From Thiobacillus sp. 65-29 (GTDB lineage: Bacteria > Pseudomonadota > Gammaproteobacteria > Burkholderiales > Thiobacillaceae): 51,629 bases of DNA. Within the stretch, counting starts at the first letter, position 1, and every line of letters starts with the position of its first letter. Below are positions 3,843 through 44,255 of this stretch, piece after piece. Both the position numbers and the translations under genes were made by a program. Below the pieces are notes generated by a model. The model was not told the DNA's origin. It saw only the letters and a program-made list of their open reading frames with translations, and made no database searches. The DNA is taken from assembly GCA_001899775.1 (NCBI GenBank), contig MKWN01000058.1, forward strand, positions 1 through 51,629. Direction: 5' to 3'.

Positions 3843-4760
3843 CCGGCTCGCCTCGTGTTCGGGGCGCAGCAGCGCGCGCCGCACGCGCGCATGGTCGCGC
3901 AGGTCGGCGTAGAAACCCGCATCGGTCTCGGCGCGCAGGAGCCGTTCCGCCAGGCAGCGTTCGTCACCCACCGGAAAATATCCCGGATAGTCGTCGCCGA
4001 GCATGCCGCGATTGCCGGGGATGTCCGACGCCAGTACCGGCACGTCGGCGGCGAGGGCTTCGCAGATCACGTTGGCGCCGCCTTCCATACGCGAAGCCAG
4101 CACCAGCAGGCGCGCGCGTGACAGATGCTTCAGCACCGCGCCGTGCGGCACCTCGCCACCCCAGTGCCAGCGCGGCAGGCTGGCCTGGGCGCGTTCGGCA
4201 GTGGCGGCCATCTCGTCGTCGAGCGCACGCCCGAGATAGATGGCCTGGATGCGCGAAGTGCGCGGCAGTAGCGCGGTGGCGAGCGCGAGACGAAAGGGAT
4301 CCTTTTCTTCGCGCAAATGACCGATTGCCAGCACTTCGAAGCGGTCGTCGTGCACCGGGCCGCGCTCGATGTCGGGTGAAGACTGGTAGATGACGCGTGT
4401 CTTGCCGGCGAGACGCGGGCCAAGCTCCCCGATTCCACGTTCCTGCAGCACGACGAGGCGGTGCGCGAGTTCCAGCGAATCCTGTGCATCGACATCCTGA
4501 CGAATGTCACGATAGAGATCCGTGCCGGTCAGGACGACGATGAGCGGTCGGCTCGGATGGCGTTCGGCAAACGCACGGATCGCGGCATGACTGCGGCGCG
4601 CGTGCAGCGCGATCATCAGATCGGCTTGATGTCCGTCCCACTCGACCTGGGTGCGCACGCCATGGCCCGCTTCGCGCAGGAAGCGTGCCCAGCGCGCGGC
4701 AGTGTGCCAGTTGCCGTTGCGTTGCTGCGGGCCGTAGGGGGTGATGAGGGCGATATGCAT
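3801..4760 (-). CDS. senB: SenB-type selenosugar synthase (TIGR04348 glycosyltransferase family)
   Basis: A 319-aa GT-B glycosyltransferase. The whole-length pattern matches my memory of the TIGR04348 family: ITPYGPQQRNGNWHTAARWA at the N-terminus, ADLMIALHARRSHAAIRAF, LTGTDLYRDI, HLREEKDPFRLALATALLP, LSRARLLVLASRMEGGANVI and ALAADVPVLASDIPGNRGML with DYPGYFPVGD. That family has been assigned to SenB of selenoneine biosynthesis, which joins selenophosphate and a UDP-sugar to make a selenosugar for SenA. The nearest genes here are RNA-processing genes; no senA (EgtB-like) or senC (SelD-like) gene is in the window, so the role is inferred from family only. It is convergent with the TPR gene (42-bp overlap). 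The start ATG at 4760 has no clear Shine-Dalgarno. A different sugar acceptor cannot be excluded. Confidence 0.8.
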   Translation of the reverse strand: MHIALITPYGPQQRNGNWHTAARWARFLREAGHGVRTQVEWDGHQADLMIALHARRSHAAIRAFAERHPSRPLIVVLTGTDLYRDIRQDVDAQDSLELAHRLVVLQERGIGELGPRLAGKTRVIYQSSPDIERGPVHDDRFEVLAIGHLREEKDPFRLALATALLPRTSRIQAIYLGRALDDEMAATAERAQASLPRWHWGGEVPHGAVLKHLSRARLLVLASRMEGGANVICEALAADVPVLASDIPGNRGMLGDDYPGYFPVGDERCLAERLLRAETDAGFYADLRDHARVRRALLRPEHEASRLRQLVAEFEHTAT

Positions 4761-4896
4761 CAGGTTATCGATTTGGCCAGCTGAAGTTTGAAGTGGCAGG
4801 GTAATCCGATTCGATCAGGTGAAGGCGAACGAAGGCGGACTTTTCAGCATTCATGCGGCGTTGATGAGCGTATCAAGCGGTCAACTGCGGTTTTTA
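4761..4896. other. Non-coding stretch upstream of senB
   Basis: No convincing gene is seen here. It must hold the promoter of the leftward glycosyltransferase gene, but I see no strong -35/-10 pair. It leads into the tandem repeat block, and together they make the only gap above 300 bp in the window. Confidence 0.5.
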
Positions 4897-38660: not shown

Positions 38661-39209
38661 ATGCCGCAAAACCCCACCCACCTGCTCTGGCTCGACATGG
38701 AAATGACCGGTCTCGCGCCCGATACCGACCGCATCATCGAGCTGGCCATCGTCGTCACTGATGCCGACCTCAACACCGTCGCCGAGGGGCCGGTACTCGT
38801 GGTGCACCAGCCGGACGCGGTGCTGGACGCGATGGACAGCTGGAACAAGGGCACCCATGGCAAGTCCGGCCTGATCGAGCGGGTGAAGGCGTCGCGGCTC
38901 TCCGAGGCCGATGCCGAAGCGCAGATGCTGGCCTTCGTGAAGCAGCACGTGCCGGCGCGCACGTCGCCGATGTGCGGCAACTCAATCTGCCAGGACCGCC
39001 GCTTCCTGGCGCGCTACATGCCGGCGCTGGAAGCCTTTTTCCACTACCGCAACCTCGACGTCAGCACGCTGAAAGAGCTTGCCAAGCGCTGGCACCCCGG
39101 CTTGCCGGAGGCGTTCAAGAAGACCAACAAGCACGAGGCGCTCGCCGACATCTATGAGTCGATCGAGGAGCTCAAGCACTACCGCGAGCACTTCATCCGC
39201 GGGGCCTGA
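38661..39209 (+). CDS. orn: Oligoribonuclease
   Basis: DEDDh exonuclease that degrades 2-5 nt RNA and the c-di-GMP product pGpG. The 182-aa product has Exo[21 protein letters not shown], ExoII region [13 protein letters not shown] and Exo[19 protein letters not shown] and [12 protein letters not shown] (His and Asp ligands). The start ATG at 38661 is preceded by CCAGGAAATCCCC. The link with c-di-GMP turnover is notable because a GGDEF/EAL protein is also in the window. Confidence 0.97.
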
Positions 39210-39224: not shown

Positions 39225-39701
39225 TCAGGGCTTGAGGTAAACGAAGCCTTCCCTCGCCTGCAAGCGGCCGATTTCGGCGACGCCGGATGGGACCACCTCG
39301 GCATCGATGATCACGGCGTCGTCGCCAAGATTGCGTCCCCTGAGCGTATTGCGACAGACGCGGAACCCGACGCCACGCTCCTTGAGGCCGGCGACCTGTG
39401 CCTCATAAGCCTGACCCTTGTCGTCTTTCGCGCCGTTGAGCAGGAAGTCGATCCCCGCGCCGTGCGTCACCACGACGATCTTCGCATCGGGGTCGGCGGT
39501 GATGTGGTTCTGCACGTTGCGCAGGGCCATGCGCGCACGTGTGGCATCGTTGACGTGATAGACGACTTTTTCCTGTGCTGCGGCGAGGGTGGCGGATCGT
39601 GATGGCGTGGGATCGGCGCTCGCGCCGGTGCTGGCGAGCGGGGTCACGGCGAGCAGCAGTGCGGCGGCAAGGGCGGCAGGGCGGGGCAGGTTGCATTTCA
39701 T
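39225..39701 (-). CDS. Secreted DsrE-like (COG1416-type) protein
   Basis: A 158-aa protein with a signal peptide (to about residue 29), then a DsrE/F-like fold: EKVVYHVNDATRARMALRNV at the start, KIVVVTHGAGIDFLL, LKERGVGFRVCRNTL and GVAEIGRLQAREGFVYLKP at the end. The only cysteine of the mature chain is C116, at the conserved ACxNTL-like position, so sulfur binding is possible. The start is ATG 39701 with GGAGAA 6 nt upstream. The divergent ECF operon encodes the same domain fused to an anti-sigma factor, so the two proteins are probably functionally linked. Its substrate is unknown. Confidence 0.88.
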   Translation of the reverse strand: MKCNLPRPAALAAALLLAVTPLASTGASADPTPSRSATLAAAQEKVVYHVNDATRARMALRNVQNHITADPDAKIVVVTHGAGIDFLLNGAKDDKGQAYEAQVAGLKERGVGFRVCRNTLRGRNLGDDAVIIDAEVVPSGVAEIGRLQAREGFVYLKP

Positions 39702-39727
39702 GGCGTTCTCCGGTTGGCATGGGGCTG

Positions 39728-39746
39728 GTGGTCTGCTTCCGAAATA
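39728..39746 (-). promoter_or_regulatory. Mirrored 19-bp promoter/operator block, dsrE-like side
   Basis: Read leftward: TATTTCGGAAGCAGACCAC, ending 27 bp before the dsrE-like start codon. It is identical to the block at 39870-39888 read rightward. Conservation continues upstream as TGTC(A/G)C and, after a 3-nt shift, CCGTTTCA (39755-39762). This is probably the element recognised by the neighbouring ECF sigma factor. Confidence 0.7.
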
Positions 39747-39869
39747 ACGCGACATGAAACGGCGTCTTTTTCCGCATGGCGGCGTTGCTCGTCGTTGCCA
39801 TAGTCCGGGCTATGTCGCCTCCTCGCGCCTTGCCCTGCAGAAAAAGCCATCCGTTTCATCCTGTCACCC

Positions 39870-39888
39870 TATTTCGGAAGCAGACCAC
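39870..39888 (+). promoter_or_regulatory. Mirrored 19-bp promoter/operator block, ECF sigma side
   Basis: TATTTCGGAAGCAGACCAC, preceded by CCGTTTCATCC-TGTCACCC, upstream of the ECF sigma gene. It is the exact inverted copy of the block in front of the dsrE-like gene. A sigma-70-like TATAGT (39898-39903) follows 17 bp after CGGAAG and could be a basal -10. Confidence 0.7.
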
Positions 39889-39988
39889 TGGATGCCCTAT
39901 AGTGAAAGACGTTCCTGCTGAAACACTTATTCCATGCGCTGGCTTTTTTTTCATGGAATATTCGGACCGTTTCCCGCGTCTTATAGCC

Positions 39989-40543
39989 ATGAGCCTGATC
40001 ACACGCCTCCTGTTCGGTCCGCCTCGTGGCGATATCGAGGCCCTGCGCCCCGCGCTTCATCGCATTGCCTACGCCTGGTGCCACGACGCCGCCCTGGCCG
40101 ACGACCTGACGCAGGAAACGCTCGCGCGGGCACTGGCACGGCGCGGCCAATTGCGCGACGCGCGGGCACTCAAGGCCTGGATGATGAAAATCCTGCACCA
40201 TTGCTGGATGGACCATCTGCGCCGCAGGCGGGAGTTCGACGATTGGGAATCCCTGGAAGACACTCACGAAACCGGGGCCGAGACCCCCGAGGAGTGCTGC
40301 GACCGCACGCGCATCGTCGCGTGCGTGCGCGCAGCCGTGGCGCGACTGCCGATGGCTCAGCGCGAAGTGCTGACGCTGGTGGATCTGGAGGAATTCGGCT
40401 ACGCGGAGGTGGCCGGCATCCTTGGCATTCCAGTCGGCACCGTGATGAGCCGGCTGTCACGCGGGCGAGCCGCACTGAAGTCGCTCCTGCTCGATGGTGC
40501 GCAGCGCACCGCTAAACATCCTGTGCTGAGGCGCGTGAAATGA
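39989..40543 (+). CDS. ECF-type RNA polymerase sigma factor
   Basis: A 184-aa extracytoplasmic-function sigma factor. Region 2 (about residues 16-82) contains RIAYAWCHDAALADDLTQET and LKAWMMKILHHCWMDHLRRR. Region 4 (about 108-160) contains LPMAQREVLTLVDLEEFGYA and EVAGILGIPVGTVMSRLSRG. The ATG at 39989 is preferred because homology begins about there; another ATG at 39953 would add 12 residues, and neither has a good ribosome site. The stop overlaps the anti-sigma gene (ATGA), the usual coupling of sigma and anti-sigma. It likely drives its own operon and the divergent dsrE-like gene. Confidence 0.93.
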   Translation: MSLITRLLFGPPRGDIEALRPALHRIAYAWCHDAALADDLTQETLARALARRGQLRDARALKAWMMKILHHCWMDHLRRRREFDDWESLEDTHETGAETPEECCDRTRIVACVRAAVARLPMAQREVLTLVDLEEFGYAEVAGILGIPVGTVMSRLSRGRAALKSLLLDGAQRTAKHPVLRRVK

Positions 40544-41238
40544 CCGGCGAGATTCCTGACGAGATCCTGCATGCCTTCGTCGATGGAGAACTTGCCGCGG
40601 ACGAAAGCGAACGCCTCATCGCCCGCGTGCGTGACGACGCGTCGCTCGCTGCGCGCGTGTGCGAACTGCGTAACCTGCGGTCGATGGTACGTACGGCCTA
40701 CGCCGAACCGCCGCTACCCGCCAGGCGAGTCGATCGTTCGTCGCGCACGTGGCGGGCGGGTCTTGCGGCCGCAGTCGCCGTGCTTGCGATCGGCGTCGCC
40801 GCGGGCTGGATGCTGCGGGGCCTGGATGGCGCACCGGATGCGCTCCATCTCGCCCGCATCGTCGCGCCGGCCGGGCAGGGCAAGGTGCTGCTGCATCTCG
40901 ACAGTGCGGAACCGGAACGCATGCAGACTGCGCTTGATGCGGCCGAACGGTTGCTCGACGAGGCGGAAAGGCAGGGGCGGGCCACGCAGGTCGAAATCGT
41001 TGCGAACAGCCAGGGAATCGGCTTGCTGCGCGCTGGTGTCAGCCCTCACGTGGCGCGCATCGCGCAACTGCACGCCCGCCATGTCAACCTGCAATTCGTC
41101 GCCTGCGGCCAGACGATCGCCCGTCTCGCCGGCGAGGGGGATCGTGTCGTCCTGCTGCCTGCGGTCCGTACCGCGCCCACGGCAGTCGGCGAGATCGTCG
41201 ACCGCCTGCAGCAGGGCTGGACTTACGTGCGCATCTGA
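40540..41238 (+). CDS. Transmembrane anti-sigma factor fused to a periplasmic DsrE-like domain
   Basis: A 232-aa protein. Residues 1-50 form a cytoplasmic anti-sigma domain (IPDEILHAFVDGELAADESE), without the HxxxCxxC zinc motif. A membrane helix (about residues 72-93, RAGLAAAVAVLAIGVAAGWM) follows. Residues about 114-232 match the neighbouring DsrE-like protein in pattern: GKVLLHLDSAEPERMQTALD, QVEIVANSQGIGLL, LHARHVNLQFVACGQTIARL and AVGEIVDRLQQGWTYVRI, with C189 aligned to its single Cys. The topology puts the DsrE-like domain in the periplasm, as a likely sensor that releases the sigma factor. I know of no described anti-sigma of this architecture, which is a statement of my own memory only. 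Confidence 0.85.
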   Translation: MTGEIPDEILHAFVDGELAADESERLIARVRDDASLAARVCELRNLRSMVRTAYAEPPLPARRVDRSSRTWRAGLAAAVAVLAIGVAAGWMLRGLDGAPDALHLARIVAPAGQGKVLLHLDSAEPERMQTALDAAERLLDEAERQGRATQVEIVANSQGIGLLRAGVSPHVARIAQLHARHVNLQFVACGQTIARLAGEGDRVVLLPAVRTAPTAVGEIVDRLQQGWTYVRI

Positions 41239-41281
41239 CCCGCGACACGGCGTGCGGGTCGTGCGGGCCCGGGAGAGTCTC

Positions 41282-43087
41282 ATGCAAACCGGTTGGTCTG
41301 GATTCACGCGTGTGCTGGCCGGTGTTCTGCTGCTGGCGTGCCTGCTGCCGGCCGCTGCGGTGACGCAGCCCCTGTCGAACCGACTCGCCGGCCATCCCTC
41401 GCCGTATCTCGCCCTGCACGCCGGCGATCCCGTGGTGTGGCAGGAGTGGAACGCCGAAACGGTCGCGCGCGCACGGCGCGAGAACAAGCTGCTGTTCGTC
41501 TCCATCGGCTACTTCGCCTGCCACTGGTGCCACGTCATGCAGCGCGAGAGCTATCGCAACAGTACGATTGCGGCGCGTCTCAACGAAAATTTCATACCCG
41601 TCAAGGTCGACCGGGAGTTGCACGGTGGACTGGATAGCGCGCTGCAGGCGTTTGCCGCGCGCCTCACCGGTGTGTCCGGCTGGCCCCTCAACGCATTCGT
41701 GACGCCCGACGGCTACCCGCTGTCCGTCGTTCTATATGTCCCGCCGCAGGACCTTGCCGCGGTGCTCGACCGCATCGCGGCGCGCTGGGCCGCGGAGCCG
41801 GAGGCCCTTCGCGCGCTGGCGCGTCGCGCCGCCCCGGCGGCAACCGCACCGCCGCGGGCCGCGCCGCTCACCACCGCGCGTGGCGCCGATGCATGGCGGC
41901 AATTTCTCGATGCCGCGTGGCATGAGGCCGATCTCCTGCACGGTGGCTTCGGACAGGTCGCAAAATTTCCCATGGCGCCGCAGCTCGAGGCCCTGCTCGA
42001 ACGCCAGGCGCGGAATCCTGAAGCCAGGCTCGCCGAGTTCCTGCGTCTCACGCTCGAGCAGATGGTCGCGCGCGGTTTGCGTGACCATGTTGGCGGCGGC
42101 TTCTTTCGCTACACGGTCGACCCCGGTTGGGAGACCCCGCATTTCGAAAAGATGCTTGCCGACAACGCGCAATTGGCTGCGCTCTACCTGCGTGCGGCGG
42201 TGGTGCTGCGCGAACCGCGCTATCGCGAGGTGGCGCGCACCACGTTCGACTTCATGCTGCGCGATCTGGCCGATGCGGGGGGCGGCTTCTACGCCAGCAC
42301 ATCCGCAGTCGATGCGCAGGGACGCGAAGGCGTGTTCTACCTGTGGGAGCCCGAGGTGCTGCAACGCCATCTGTCGCCTGCGACCTACGCCGCCGCGTGG
42401 CGTGTATGGCGGCTGGACGCGGCGCGTGCCTTCGATCATGGTTACCTGCCGGCGGAATATCGCGTGCCGACGGAGTTGGAACGGCCGCGCCTCAAGGAAG
42501 CGGCGGCCGTCCTGCTGCCGTTGCGCCAGACCCGCAGCCTGCCGCGCGATACCAAGATGAACGCGGGTCTCAATGGCCTCGCCCTGTCGGCGCTGAGTCG
42601 GGCGGCGGCGCTCGATCCCGCTTACCGGCGCGCCGCCGACCGTCTGCAGCACTTCCTGCTCAAACACCTGGTGCGCAGCGGCAAACTGGTGAAGGCCGTG
42701 GCCGGCGGCAAGAAGGTGGCAGGCGCGGAACTGGAGGATTACGCCTGGACCGTGGCGGGACTGCTTGATTACGCCGACGCTACCGGCGATCGGGCGTCGC
42801 GTGCGGCAGCCCGAAACCTGGCGCACGTCGCCTGGCAGACATTCTGGCGCACGGCGGGCTGGCAGCACGAAGTAGAGCCACTGCTCGCGACCCGTGCGCC
42901 AGCGGCGGGCCTGCCTGACGGCGCGCAGCCCTCGCCGGCCGACGTGCTGATCCGGTCCAGCCTGCGCCTGGGTGACCCGAAATTGCGGGAACGCGCACGC
43001 GAGGCCGCCGCGTGGACGCTGCCGGAGATGGCGCGCGACCCGCTTGCCTGGCCCAGCCGTGTGCGCCTGCTGGATGCGCTCAGTTGA
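41282..43087 (+). CDS. Secreted DUF255 / SPATA20-type thioredoxin-domain protein
   Basis: A 601-aa protein with a signal peptide (to about residue 27), then an N-terminal thioredoxin-like DUF255 domain: RLAGHPSPYLALHAGDPVVW, the redox motif FACHWCHVM (C80, C83) and FIPVKVDRELHGGLD. A long alpha/alpha-barrel region follows (about residues 200-600) with the family segments HGGFGQVAKFPMAPQL, GGFFRYTVDPGWETPHFEKM and DTKMNAGLNGLALSAL. The usual DREERPD after the redox site is changed to DRELHGG. The exact role is unknown; thiol-disulfide chemistry is plausible. It lies 43 bp after the anti-sigma gene and is probably part of that operon. A longer frame open from 40571 runs inside the anti-sigma gene and is discarded. 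Confidence 0.88.
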   Translation: MQTGWSGFTRVLAGVLLLACLLPAAAVTQPLSNRLAGHPSPYLALHAGDPVVWQEWNAETVARARRENKLLFVSIGYFACHWCHVMQRESYRNSTIAARLNENFIPVKVDRELHGGLDSALQAFAARLTGVSGWPLNAFVTPDGYPLSVVLYVPPQDLAAVLDRIAARWAAEPEALRALARRAAPAATAPPRAAPLTTARGADAWRQFLDAAWHEADLLHGGFGQVAKFPMAPQLEALLERQARNPEARLAEFLRLTLEQMVARGLRDHVGGGFFRYTVDPGWETPHFEKMLADNAQLAALYLRAAVVLREPRYREVARTTFDFMLRDLADAGGGFYASTSAVDAQGREGVFYLWEPEVLQRHLSPATYAAAWRVWRLDAARAFDHGYLPAEYRVPTELERPRLKEAAAVLLPLRQTRSLPRDTKMNAGLNGLALSALSRAAALDPAYRRAADRLQHFLLKHLVRSGKLVKAVAGGKKVAGAELEDYAWTVAGLLDYADATGDRASRAAARNLAHVAWQTFWRTAGWQHEVEPLLATRAPAAGLPDGAQPSPADVLIRSSLRLGDPKLRERAREAAAWTLPEMARDPLAWPSRVRLLDALS

Positions 43088-44255
43088 GCTCGGGATCGGC
43101 CTGTGGCAGCGGTGAACGCTGTACCGGGCGGCGCCCCGCCTGCACCGAGACCTCGAGTGATTGTTGCTTGCGCGCCACCGAGAGGCGCGCGGTTTCGCCG
43201 GGTTTGAGTGCGGCGATGAGATTGAGCAGCGACGCCGAGTCGGATACCTGTTTGCCGTTCACCGCGAGCAGGACGTCGCCCGGACGCACGCCGCCGTTGT
43301 CGGCCGGTCCACCCTTCAACACGCCCGCGATCAGCGCGCCGTGGGCGTTCTTCAGGCTGAACGATTCGGCGAGTTCCGGGGTGAGGTCCTGCACCTCGAT
43401 GCCGACCCAGCCGCGTGTCACGCTGCCTTCGCGAATGATCTGCTCCATCACCTGGCGCGCGATGCTCACCGGAATGGCGAAGCCGATGCCTTGCGAGCCA
43501 CCGGTACGCGAATAGATCGCGCTGTTGATGCCCACCAGATTCCCGGCGGCATCGACCAGCGCCCCGCCCGAGTTGCCGGGGTTGATCGCGGCGTCGGTCT
43601 GGATGAAGTTCTCGAAAGTGTTGATGCCGAGCTGGGTGCGCCCGAGGGCACTGACGATACCCGCCGTGACCGTCTGCCCGACGCCGAAGGGGTTGCCCAG
43701 CGCCAGCACCCAGTCGCCCACCCGGAGCGTGTCGGGTTGCGCGAAGGTGATCGCCGGCAGGTCGCCGGCGTCGATTTTCAGCACCGCCAGATCGGTTTCC
43801 GGGTCGGCGCCGACGACGCGCGCGGGCAGGGCGCGGCCGTCGGCCAGTGCCACCTGGATTTCGTCGGCCGCCTCGACCACGTGGTAGTTGGTGAGGACGT
43901 AGCCGTTCGCGCTGACAATGACTCCCGAGCCGAGGTTGGACGCCTGACGCGGGCGGCCATCGAGGCGATCGCCGAAGAAGTAGCGGAAAATCGGATCCTG
44001 CACCGCGGGGGCGCGCATTTTTTGCTGGGTGAACACGTTGACCACGGCGGGGATCACGCGCTGCGCCGCCGGCGCGAACGATTCCATGGGAGGCAGCGGC
44101 GTCGCGGGTGTCGCGGGAGCCTGGCGAATGGTTACACCGGGGCGGGGTTGCGGTGCCTGCCAGCGCAGCAGGTCCGGCTTGAAGAGCGCGATGACGAACA
44201 GCACGCCCAGGGCCACCGTGGTGGTCTGGGCGAAAAGCAGCCAGAGTTTGCGCAT
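43080..44255 (-). CDS. DegS/HtrA-like periplasmic serine protease
   Basis: A 391-aa protein with an N-terminal membrane anchor (about residues 5-25), a trypsin-like domain with triad H125 (YVLTNYHVV), D155 (DLAVLKI) and S229 (NPGNSGGALV), and one PDZ domain (about residues 285-370; VLKGGPADNGGVRPGDVLLA). A single PDZ plus membrane anchor is the DegS layout; DegP has two PDZ domains. DegS-type proteases cut anti-sigma factors in other bacteria, so it could act on the anti-sigma factor encoded next door, which is inference. Its 3' end overlaps the DUF255 gene by 8 bp. A perfect FNR-type box sits 2 bp upstream of its start. Confidence 0.92.
   Translation of the reverse strand: MRKLWLLFAQTTTVALGVLFVIALFKPDLLRWQAPQPRPGVTIRQAPATPATPLPPMESFAPAAQRVIPAVVNVFTQQKMRAPAVQDPIFRYFFGDRLDGRPRQASNLGSGVIVSANGYVLTNYHVVEAADEIQVALADGRALPARVVGADPETDLAVLKIDAGDLPAITFAQPDTLRVGDWVLALGNPFGVGQTVTAGIVSALGRTQLGINTFENFIQTDAAINPGNSGGALVDAAGNLVGINSAIYSRTGGSQGIGFAIPVSIARQVMEQIIREGSVTRGWVGIEVQDLTPELAESFSLKNAHGALIAGVLKGGPADNGGVRPGDVLLAVNGKQVSDSASLLNLIAALKPGETARLSVARKQQSLEVSVQAGRRPVQRSPLPQADPELN

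Follow-up and report, generated by a model that had tools for sequence, protein, structure and literature searches.

The closest described relatives of the system treated here are the extracytoplasmic function (ECF) sigma factors of group ECF26, known from S. meliloti (RpoE4/RpoE1) and Starkeya novella (SigE/RpoE1). According to excerpts of the paper describing them, the signal in both organisms is sulfite, one ECF26 system probably answers tetrathionate, the sulfite-responsive promoters have GGAAT at -35 and CGTC at -10, and S. novella RpoE1 occurs in a DUF305-YncE setting (PMC6527743). The present system lies on a contig of Thiobacillus sp. 65-29 (MKWN01000058.1; the whole stretch of 51,629 nucleotides analysed is called the window). 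It comprises an ECF sigma factor gene, an overlapping gene for a predicted transmembrane anti-sigma factor with a DsrE-fold C-terminal domain, and a divergent gene for a secreted DsrE-like protein. As in ECF26, sigma and anti-sigma factor share one operon and there is a link to sulfur metabolism; the promoters, compared with the excerpted description of ECF26, have the same GGAAT/CGTC consensus. We liken the sigma factor to ECF26 from this promoter and from the gene contexts of plasmid-borne relatives. The associated genes differ: known ECF26 targets are sulfite oxidases, whereas the window system goes with the secreted DsrE protein, a porin-like gene and in places sox genes. No sulfite-oxidase gene was found among six window genes scanned with Pfam between 38236 and 44255 (the gene at 38661-39209 lay outside the scan).

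To our knowledge it is largely open how sulfur oxidisers sense extracytoplasmic reduced sulfur and tune Sox and related pathways, and the sensors known to us are cytoplasmic. Regulators of the SoxR, SqrR and FisR type are soluble cytoplasmic DNA-binding repressors of sulfur oxidation genes which act through cysteine. The window system would serve the same purpose, cysteine-based sulfur control, but with a transmembrane anti-sigma factor instead. The other family to be compared is DsrE/TusD/YchN. In the excerpts consulted, Cys78 of Allochromatium vinosum DsrE carries a persulfide after incubation with sulfide (PMC3397948), and Metallosphaera DsrE3A reacts with tetrathionate to give Cys-S-thiosulfonate (PMC4175335). 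The window domain has the fold, the conserved cysteine region and a sequence match in common with the MTH1491-like branch of this superfamily; characterised members, however, are free sulfur-transfer proteins, whereas the window domain forms part of a membrane-bound anti-sigma factor and its partner is secreted. The first-pass annotation of the locus knew of no described anti-sigma factor of this design. This holds within the openly licensed literature, where no system joining DsrE to an anti-sigma or ECF sigma factor was found and Sox together with ECF and anti-sigma factors led to a single genome paper; the large 2021 ECF reclassification lay outside this coverage. Three apparent hits were spurious: PMC3511301 matched through DsRed, and PMC10512742 and PMC12563154, as far as their excerpts go, mention both words in unrelated places.

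A DsrE-fold domain in a predicted anti-sigma factor

Neighbourhoods were compared in 32 Thiobacillus loci (L029, L034-L050, L054-L067) and in 42 loci outside the genus. The latter comprise 20 of the 51 genomes of the order and 20 of the 65 of the class that have a full-length anti-sigma homologue, chosen on score and contig size with their neighbours still unseen, and the loci of G049 and G055, which had been seen beforehand; L052 and L143 belong to one genus. The module in the window has the following features.

39225-39701, minus strand: free DsrE-like gene, secreted product of 158 residues (Pfam PF02635, MTH1491 match, cysteine positions, hydropathy)
39908-39934, minus strand: predicted ECF promoter of the divergent DsrE gene, TGGAATAA-N15-CGTC (motif search; opposite-strand motif in 32/32 Thiobacillus loci)
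39954-39980, plus strand: predicted ECF promoter of the sigma operon, TGGAATAT-N15-CGTC (8 nt short of the sigma ATG; sigma-strand motif in 31/32 Thiobacillus and 35/42 other loci)
39989-40543, plus strand: ECF sigma factor, 184 residues, regions 2 and 4 (Pfam Sigma70_r2 and r4_2)
40540-41238, plus strand: predicted transmembrane anti-sigma factor with DsrE-fold C-terminal domain, 232 residues (overlaps the sigma stop codon)
40759-40815, plus strand: predicted membrane helix of the anti-sigma factor, residues 74-92 (hydropathy; helix 69-93 in the model, at low confidence)
40876-41235, plus strand: DsrE-fold domain of the anti-sigma factor, residues 113-232, C189 codon at 41104-41106 (profile, profile-profile and structure comparison)

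The sigma factor is of the ECF type by its regions 2 and 4 and by its ECF-type promoter; the Pfam scan was run from 39776 and the start codon was set by conserved spacing. The proposal that the predicted periplasmic half of the anti-sigma factor is a DsrE domain proved right. This domain matches MTH1491 in a profile search (E 3.5e-12) and the free DsrE protein in hhalign (E 9.6e-15), and structure comparison agrees; by fold and sequence homology it belongs to the DsrE/DsrF-like superfamily. The curated model PF02635 gave no match to the window anti-sigma factor up to E 1, its gathering cut-off being unmet, and no Pfam or NCBIfam family scored over its cut-off on the domain. The free DsrE protein passes PF02635 (E 3.3e-10) and matches MTH1491 at E 5.3e-30 (profile A3). 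It has an apparent signal peptide and a single mature cysteine, C116 (codon 39354-39356).

The first-pass annotation had aligned C189 of the anti-sigma factor with C116, and hhalign bears this out. C189 is invariant in 26/26 aligned anti-sigma homologues and C116 in 19/19 aligned free proteins; by alignment C189 also corresponds to a cysteine of MTH1491, and C116 to one of the solved DsrE/DsrF-like protein 3mc3. C189 appears from these alignments to occupy the conserved cysteine position of DsrE sulfurtransferases. One extracytoplasmic cysteine was counted in 36 of 37 anti-sigma factors; the only one scored with none, L037, reflects a wrongly picked helix, and its sequence has the cysteine in VACGQ. 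Similarly, 39 of 40 free DsrE proteins have one mature cysteine, the exception being a truncated frame (L055). With just one extracytoplasmic cysteine in the anti-sigma domain and one in the free protein, a disulfide within either is excluded, and the arrangement fits an adduct. L065 and L070-L073 received no start and were dropped from the anti-sigma list; the anti-sigma profile was built without L053, L068, L069 and L044, the DsrE profile without L055 and the sigma profile without rows below 100 bits.

The N-terminal part of the protein resembles zf-HC2 anti-sigma factors in being a short segment encoded next to an ECF gene. The zinc-binding motif of zf-HC2 was not found in the window anti-sigma factor, which scores 12.9 bits, far below the cut-off of 22.2, and has C41 as the only cysteine of this part. 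Six anti-sigma factors with another C-terminal half, four of them plasmid-borne and two from the order, match the N-terminal half including the membrane helix (25.4-39.5 bits, within profile positions 4-127). A search of plasmids with the anti-sigma factor gave 17 records, none covering 80% and all limited to C-terminal or short N-terminal pieces. The window sigma factor is about 40% identical to the plasmid sigma factors. The four plasmid anti-sigma factors have a window-like N-terminus (4/4) and, unlike the window protein, a C-terminal half unmatched by the profile of the window family. In two of the four loci, from Azospirillum and Bradyrhizobium, the sigma gene has DUF305 and YncE genes for neighbours, much as is described for S. 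novella RpoE1 in the excerpts cited above; in the other two it does not. YncE is a YVTN propeller. We infer that the DsrE domain arose by domain replacement within ECF26-like systems, which suggests modular swapping of sensor domains among them.

A second type of fusion combines zf-HC2, a hydrophobic stretch and DsrE in one protein and was found in 4 of 150 genomes of the order (L053 at 4190-4888 on the minus strand, L193, L194 and L195), likewise beside another ECF sigma gene and with DsrE genes nearby. In contrast to the window protein, the second type exceeds the zf-HC2 cut-off; in the two members tested (L053, L193) both zf-HC2 and DsrE score over the Pfam cut-offs. In a tree of DsrE domains the second fusion falls into a clade with free proteins (support 99/98) which excludes the first type, so that the fusion of anti-sigma factor and DsrE probably arose twice independently. 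The grouping of the first type as one clade is weakly supported (69/28), two cytoplasmic rows form very long branches and the bootstrap is unsettled.

Promoters, neighbourhood and distribution

Thiobacillus intergenic regions carry two divergent copies of TGGAATAW-N15-CGTC, and in the window genome the strict pattern occurs at the two module promoters only. Across 22 Thiobacillus genomes 48 strict matches stand against 5 for a reversed-pattern control. The promoter pair is present in 19 of these genomes, and the three without it are also without a full anti-sigma gene. Five of the ten matches unlinked to the module, the only five examined, lie just upstream of other DsrE genes. These are secreted-looking paralogues (L073 4444-4881; G015:C22, G003:C257, G007:C36, G011:C137). 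Between the end of the -10 element CGTC and the sigma ATG there are only 7-9 nt in 31 of 34 regions, two of the 34 coming from outside the genus (8 nt in the window, 39977-39991), and a leaderless or nearly leaderless sigma transcript is therefore predicted.

At 46 loci outside the genus the form GGAATA-N16-CGTC gave 73 matches and the reversed pattern none; two genomes were counted twice (L031/L122, L033/L123), which accounts for 6 of the 73. Sigma/anti-sigma or DsrE genes account for 64 of the matches, porin genes for 2 and soxY for 2. The remaining 5 are unlabelled, one of them belonging to the transporter-sox run of L150. In ten genomes assembled into three contigs or fewer, 18 matches were obtained with a stricter motif (control 1), 7 of them away from the module. 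Two of these seven, in G511 and G552, precede soxX-soxY-soxZ by 227-243 nt and have no linkage to the anti-sigma gene; at the other five distant matches no sulfur gene was recognised on reading. When 29 soxY matches in 18 genomes were inspected, the strict motif preceded soxY only in G511 and G552, with looser ones in G513.

The pairing with a secreted DsrE protein, noticed in the window, extends well beyond it, and the neighbourhood, whose lack of conservation in relatives was to have refuted the first-pass reading, is conserved. The anti-sigma gene is present in 31 of 35 same-genus relatives, in three as two-piece matches, and the four without it are assemblies 81-87% complete; the closest named record, a Thiobacillus metagenome-assembled genome, is 84% identical in the anti-sigma factor. 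A divergent free DsrE gene lies within 4 kb in 31/32 Thiobacillus loci, the exception being L057, where the contig ends close to the sigma gene. Outside the genus a free DsrE gene lies within this distance in 30/42 loci, with one on the opposite strand in 26, and a porin-like gene is near the module in 23/42. This protein (Porin_O_P, about 480 residues) is often encoded behind the free DsrE gene, for example in L142 (9683-11113) and L049 (6491-8011).

All three of soxY, soxZ and soxB were found within about 7 kb of the sigma/anti-sigma pair in 9/42 loci outside the genus. Tested members score above the curated cut-offs: SoxB 878-898 bits (550), SoxA 190-247 (110), SoxY 155-171 (125), SoxZ 136-142 (76) and SoxX 98-101 (61). 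In L052 and L143 soxYZ flank the pair on both sides on the same strand; soxYZ precede it in L157, sox genes follow it in L146, L156 and L159, and in L140 they lie 3-6 kb away. Behind the motif begins a divergent run soxY-soxZ-soxA-soxB in L153, and in L150 one of a YeeE-like sulfur transporter followed by soxY, soxZ, soxA and soxB. Strand and spacing suggest that these runs are operons.

Full-length anti-sigma homologues occur in 51 of 399 genomes of the order, the source genome included, and, among the matches listed, in 65 of 368 genomes of the class besides it. Both figures count rows covering nearly the whole profile, and genomes with fragments only (e.g. G688, G521) were scored negative. 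Among the same matches soxY is present in 57/65 genomes with the anti-sigma factor against 132/303 without (Fisher 2e-11), DsrA in 51/65 against 67/303 (1.5e-17) and either in 63/65 against 137/303 (1e-16); DsrA was counted at E 1e-20, the curated cut-off being passed in 112 of 119 genomes. Two or three full-length anti-sigma copies each are found in G511, G562, G635 and G540, which suggests paralogous sensors that may have different ligands.

A proposed sulfur-responsive system and competing explanations

Starting from the computed fold, cysteine alignment, gene order, paired promoter motifs, distribution and, in some lineages, sox linkage, we propose with moderate confidence that sulfur-oxidising Gamma- and Betaproteobacteria have an ECF sigma/anti-sigma system which responds to sulfur. 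The ECF26 promoter consensus, the persulfide on DsrE-Cys78, the reaction of DsrE3A with tetrathionate and the second fusion also speak for it. The N-terminal cytoplasmic segment of the anti-sigma factor would hold the sigma factor, and the protein would span the membrane once, with the DsrE-fold domain and its invariant cysteine facing the periplasm. A periplasmic sulfur species from thiosulfate or sulfide oxidation (polysulfide or persulfide, tetrathionate or sulfite) may bind C189 covalently, either directly or via the secreted DsrE partner. The anti-sigma factor would then release sigma, through either a change of conformation or regulated proteolysis. Once free, the sigma factor would transcribe its own operon and the secreted DsrE gene, behind which many species have the porin-like gene, as well as sox genes in several lineages. 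The secreted DsrE protein might deliver sulfur to the sensor or draw sulfur away as feedback.

The first-pass annotation had seen here a periplasmic sulfane-sulfur or thiol stress system, in which the fused domain would sense and the free one would bind or buffer. Its sulfur link is strengthened by the co-occurrence with soxY and dsrA and by sox genes near the pair or behind its promoter in some lineages; a reading as stress response alone carries less weight than one as control of sulfur oxidation, since in several lineages sox genes stand behind the same promoter or in the same cluster. Rather than chiefly serving thiol repair, the locus belongs to a widespread ECF system linked to sulfur and equipped with a receptor-like DsrE domain. 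The position of this domain on the predicted outer side of the membrane suggests that sulfur-related genes are controlled by sulfur chemistry read there. A broader idea, which we put forward tentatively and would not yet call probable, is a hitherto undescribed class of transmembrane sulfur receptors in sulfur-oxidising Proteobacteria. In this class, the DsrE domain of the anti-sigma factor would be charged by a co-induced secreted DsrE protein; the design would have arisen at least two times, with ECF26-like and with zf-HC2 N-termini, and the receptors would read periplasmic persulfide, polythionate or sulfite and switch on sulfur-related genes, in several lineages sox. The system places the DsrE fold in a signalling role and offers a concrete receptor candidate, one candidate cysteine, a promoter motif readable from genomes and tractable hosts.

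Several observations weigh against the proposed sulfur-responsive system. The anti-sigma role, that is binding and inhibition of sigma, is deduced from operon overlap and a weak N-terminal similarity whose E-values were computed over six sequences only. We know of no biochemistry for MTH1491 and ST0148, the closest solved relatives. Among characterised members, in the excerpts consulted, DsrEFH takes no sulfur from thiosulfate or glutathione persulfide (PMC3397948) and DsrE3A is unreactive with sulfide, polysulfide, thiosulfate and sulfite (PMC4175335). The co-occurrence statistics, from genomes sampled across families, ignore phylogeny, and 2 of the 65 anti-sigma genomes have neither soxY nor dsrA. 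The strict Thiobacillus pattern gave 8 matches against 4 for the control in 14 other genomes, and outside the genus it is no better than chance, the G049 module excepted. In ten other anti-sigma genomes the strict motif stands before soxY in two only. A promoter at the Thiobacillus sox genes was considered and rejected: in eight genomes, the window genome and seven others of the genus, there is no convincing motif within 1.5 kb of soxY (near soxY the window genome has one loose GGAATC match, on the other strand). The visible regulon in the genus therefore consists of the module and DsrE genes.

The constancy of the free DsrE protein could also be taken to mean that the sensor responds to protein contact. 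The anti-sigma DsrE domain would then bind no sulfur itself and would oligomerise with the secreted DsrE protein; the loading or amount of that partner, or another protein such as SoxYZ, would set the brake, the secreted protein being a ligand-bearing co-activator or a negative-feedback co-inhibitor. We consider this unlikely. The free protein is the most constant partner and has the same promoter motif, as do the unlinked DsrE paralogues, and DsrEFH is described in the excerpted source as a hexamer (PMC3397948). Set against this, C189 is as invariant as C116, and 12/42 loci outside Thiobacillus are without a nearby free DsrE gene, a figure that counts against the proposed sulfur-responsive system as well and leaves room for a distant copy.

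A general thiol, redox or metal stress sensor, whose cysteine answers oxidants, electrophiles or metals and whose association with sulfur oxidisers merely mirrors their chemistry, is in our judgement improbable. Redox-sensing anti-sigma factors are known, a thioredoxin-fold DUF255 gene follows the pair in 24/32 Thiobacillus loci, and two anti-sigma molecules may form a disulfide with each other, which is a further point against the proposed sulfur-responsive system. The lone extracytoplasmic cysteine, on the other hand, permits no internal disulfide, some lineages have sox genes close to the pair or downstream of the motif, and DUF255 is found in 0/42 loci outside the genus. An ordinary ECF26-type sulfite response, with the DsrE domain a passive replacement of the periplasmic part and sulfite read otherwise, would account for the shared promoter consensus, for the sulfite signal of S. 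meliloti and S. novella (excerpts of PMC6527743) and for the N-terminal resemblance to anti-sigma factors whose C-terminal half differs, but is very improbable, being hard to square with the strict conservation of the DsrE core and cysteine, with a separate free DsrE gene behind the same motif and with a second fusion of the same kind.

Neighbouring genes and an insertion

Two further features of the locus were mapped.

41282-43087, plus strand: secreted DUF255/Thioredox_DsbH protein with CHWC, a genus-level accessory gene (Pfam PF03190, E 2.8e-47)
39728-39890, no strand assigned: insertion resembling a miniature inverted-repeat transposable element (MITE), separating the DsrE start from its promoter and carrying terminal inverted repeats (three further genome copies)

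The MITE-like element (about 165 bp) has three more copies in the genome at 94-96% identity, and the corresponding intergenic region of L029 (125 bp) contains no stretch matching it. In this strain it has inserted there without being part of the sigma/DsrE system. The 38-bp inverted repeats between DsrE and sigma, considered as a shared promoter, are the ends of this element, and the promoters lie beside it.

The DUF255 protein had been cast as the repair component of the system. Neither it nor the product of the convergent HtrA-type protease gene at 43080-44255 can be counted as a core part: DUF255 is absent from all 42 loci outside Thiobacillus, and the HtrA-type gene occurs in 25/32 Thiobacillus loci against 1/42 elsewhere. 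The protease combines a hydrophobic stretch at its N-terminus with one PDZ match, a layout which on reading resembles DegS. The genes adjoining it read as those of a Rieske protein and cytochrome b.

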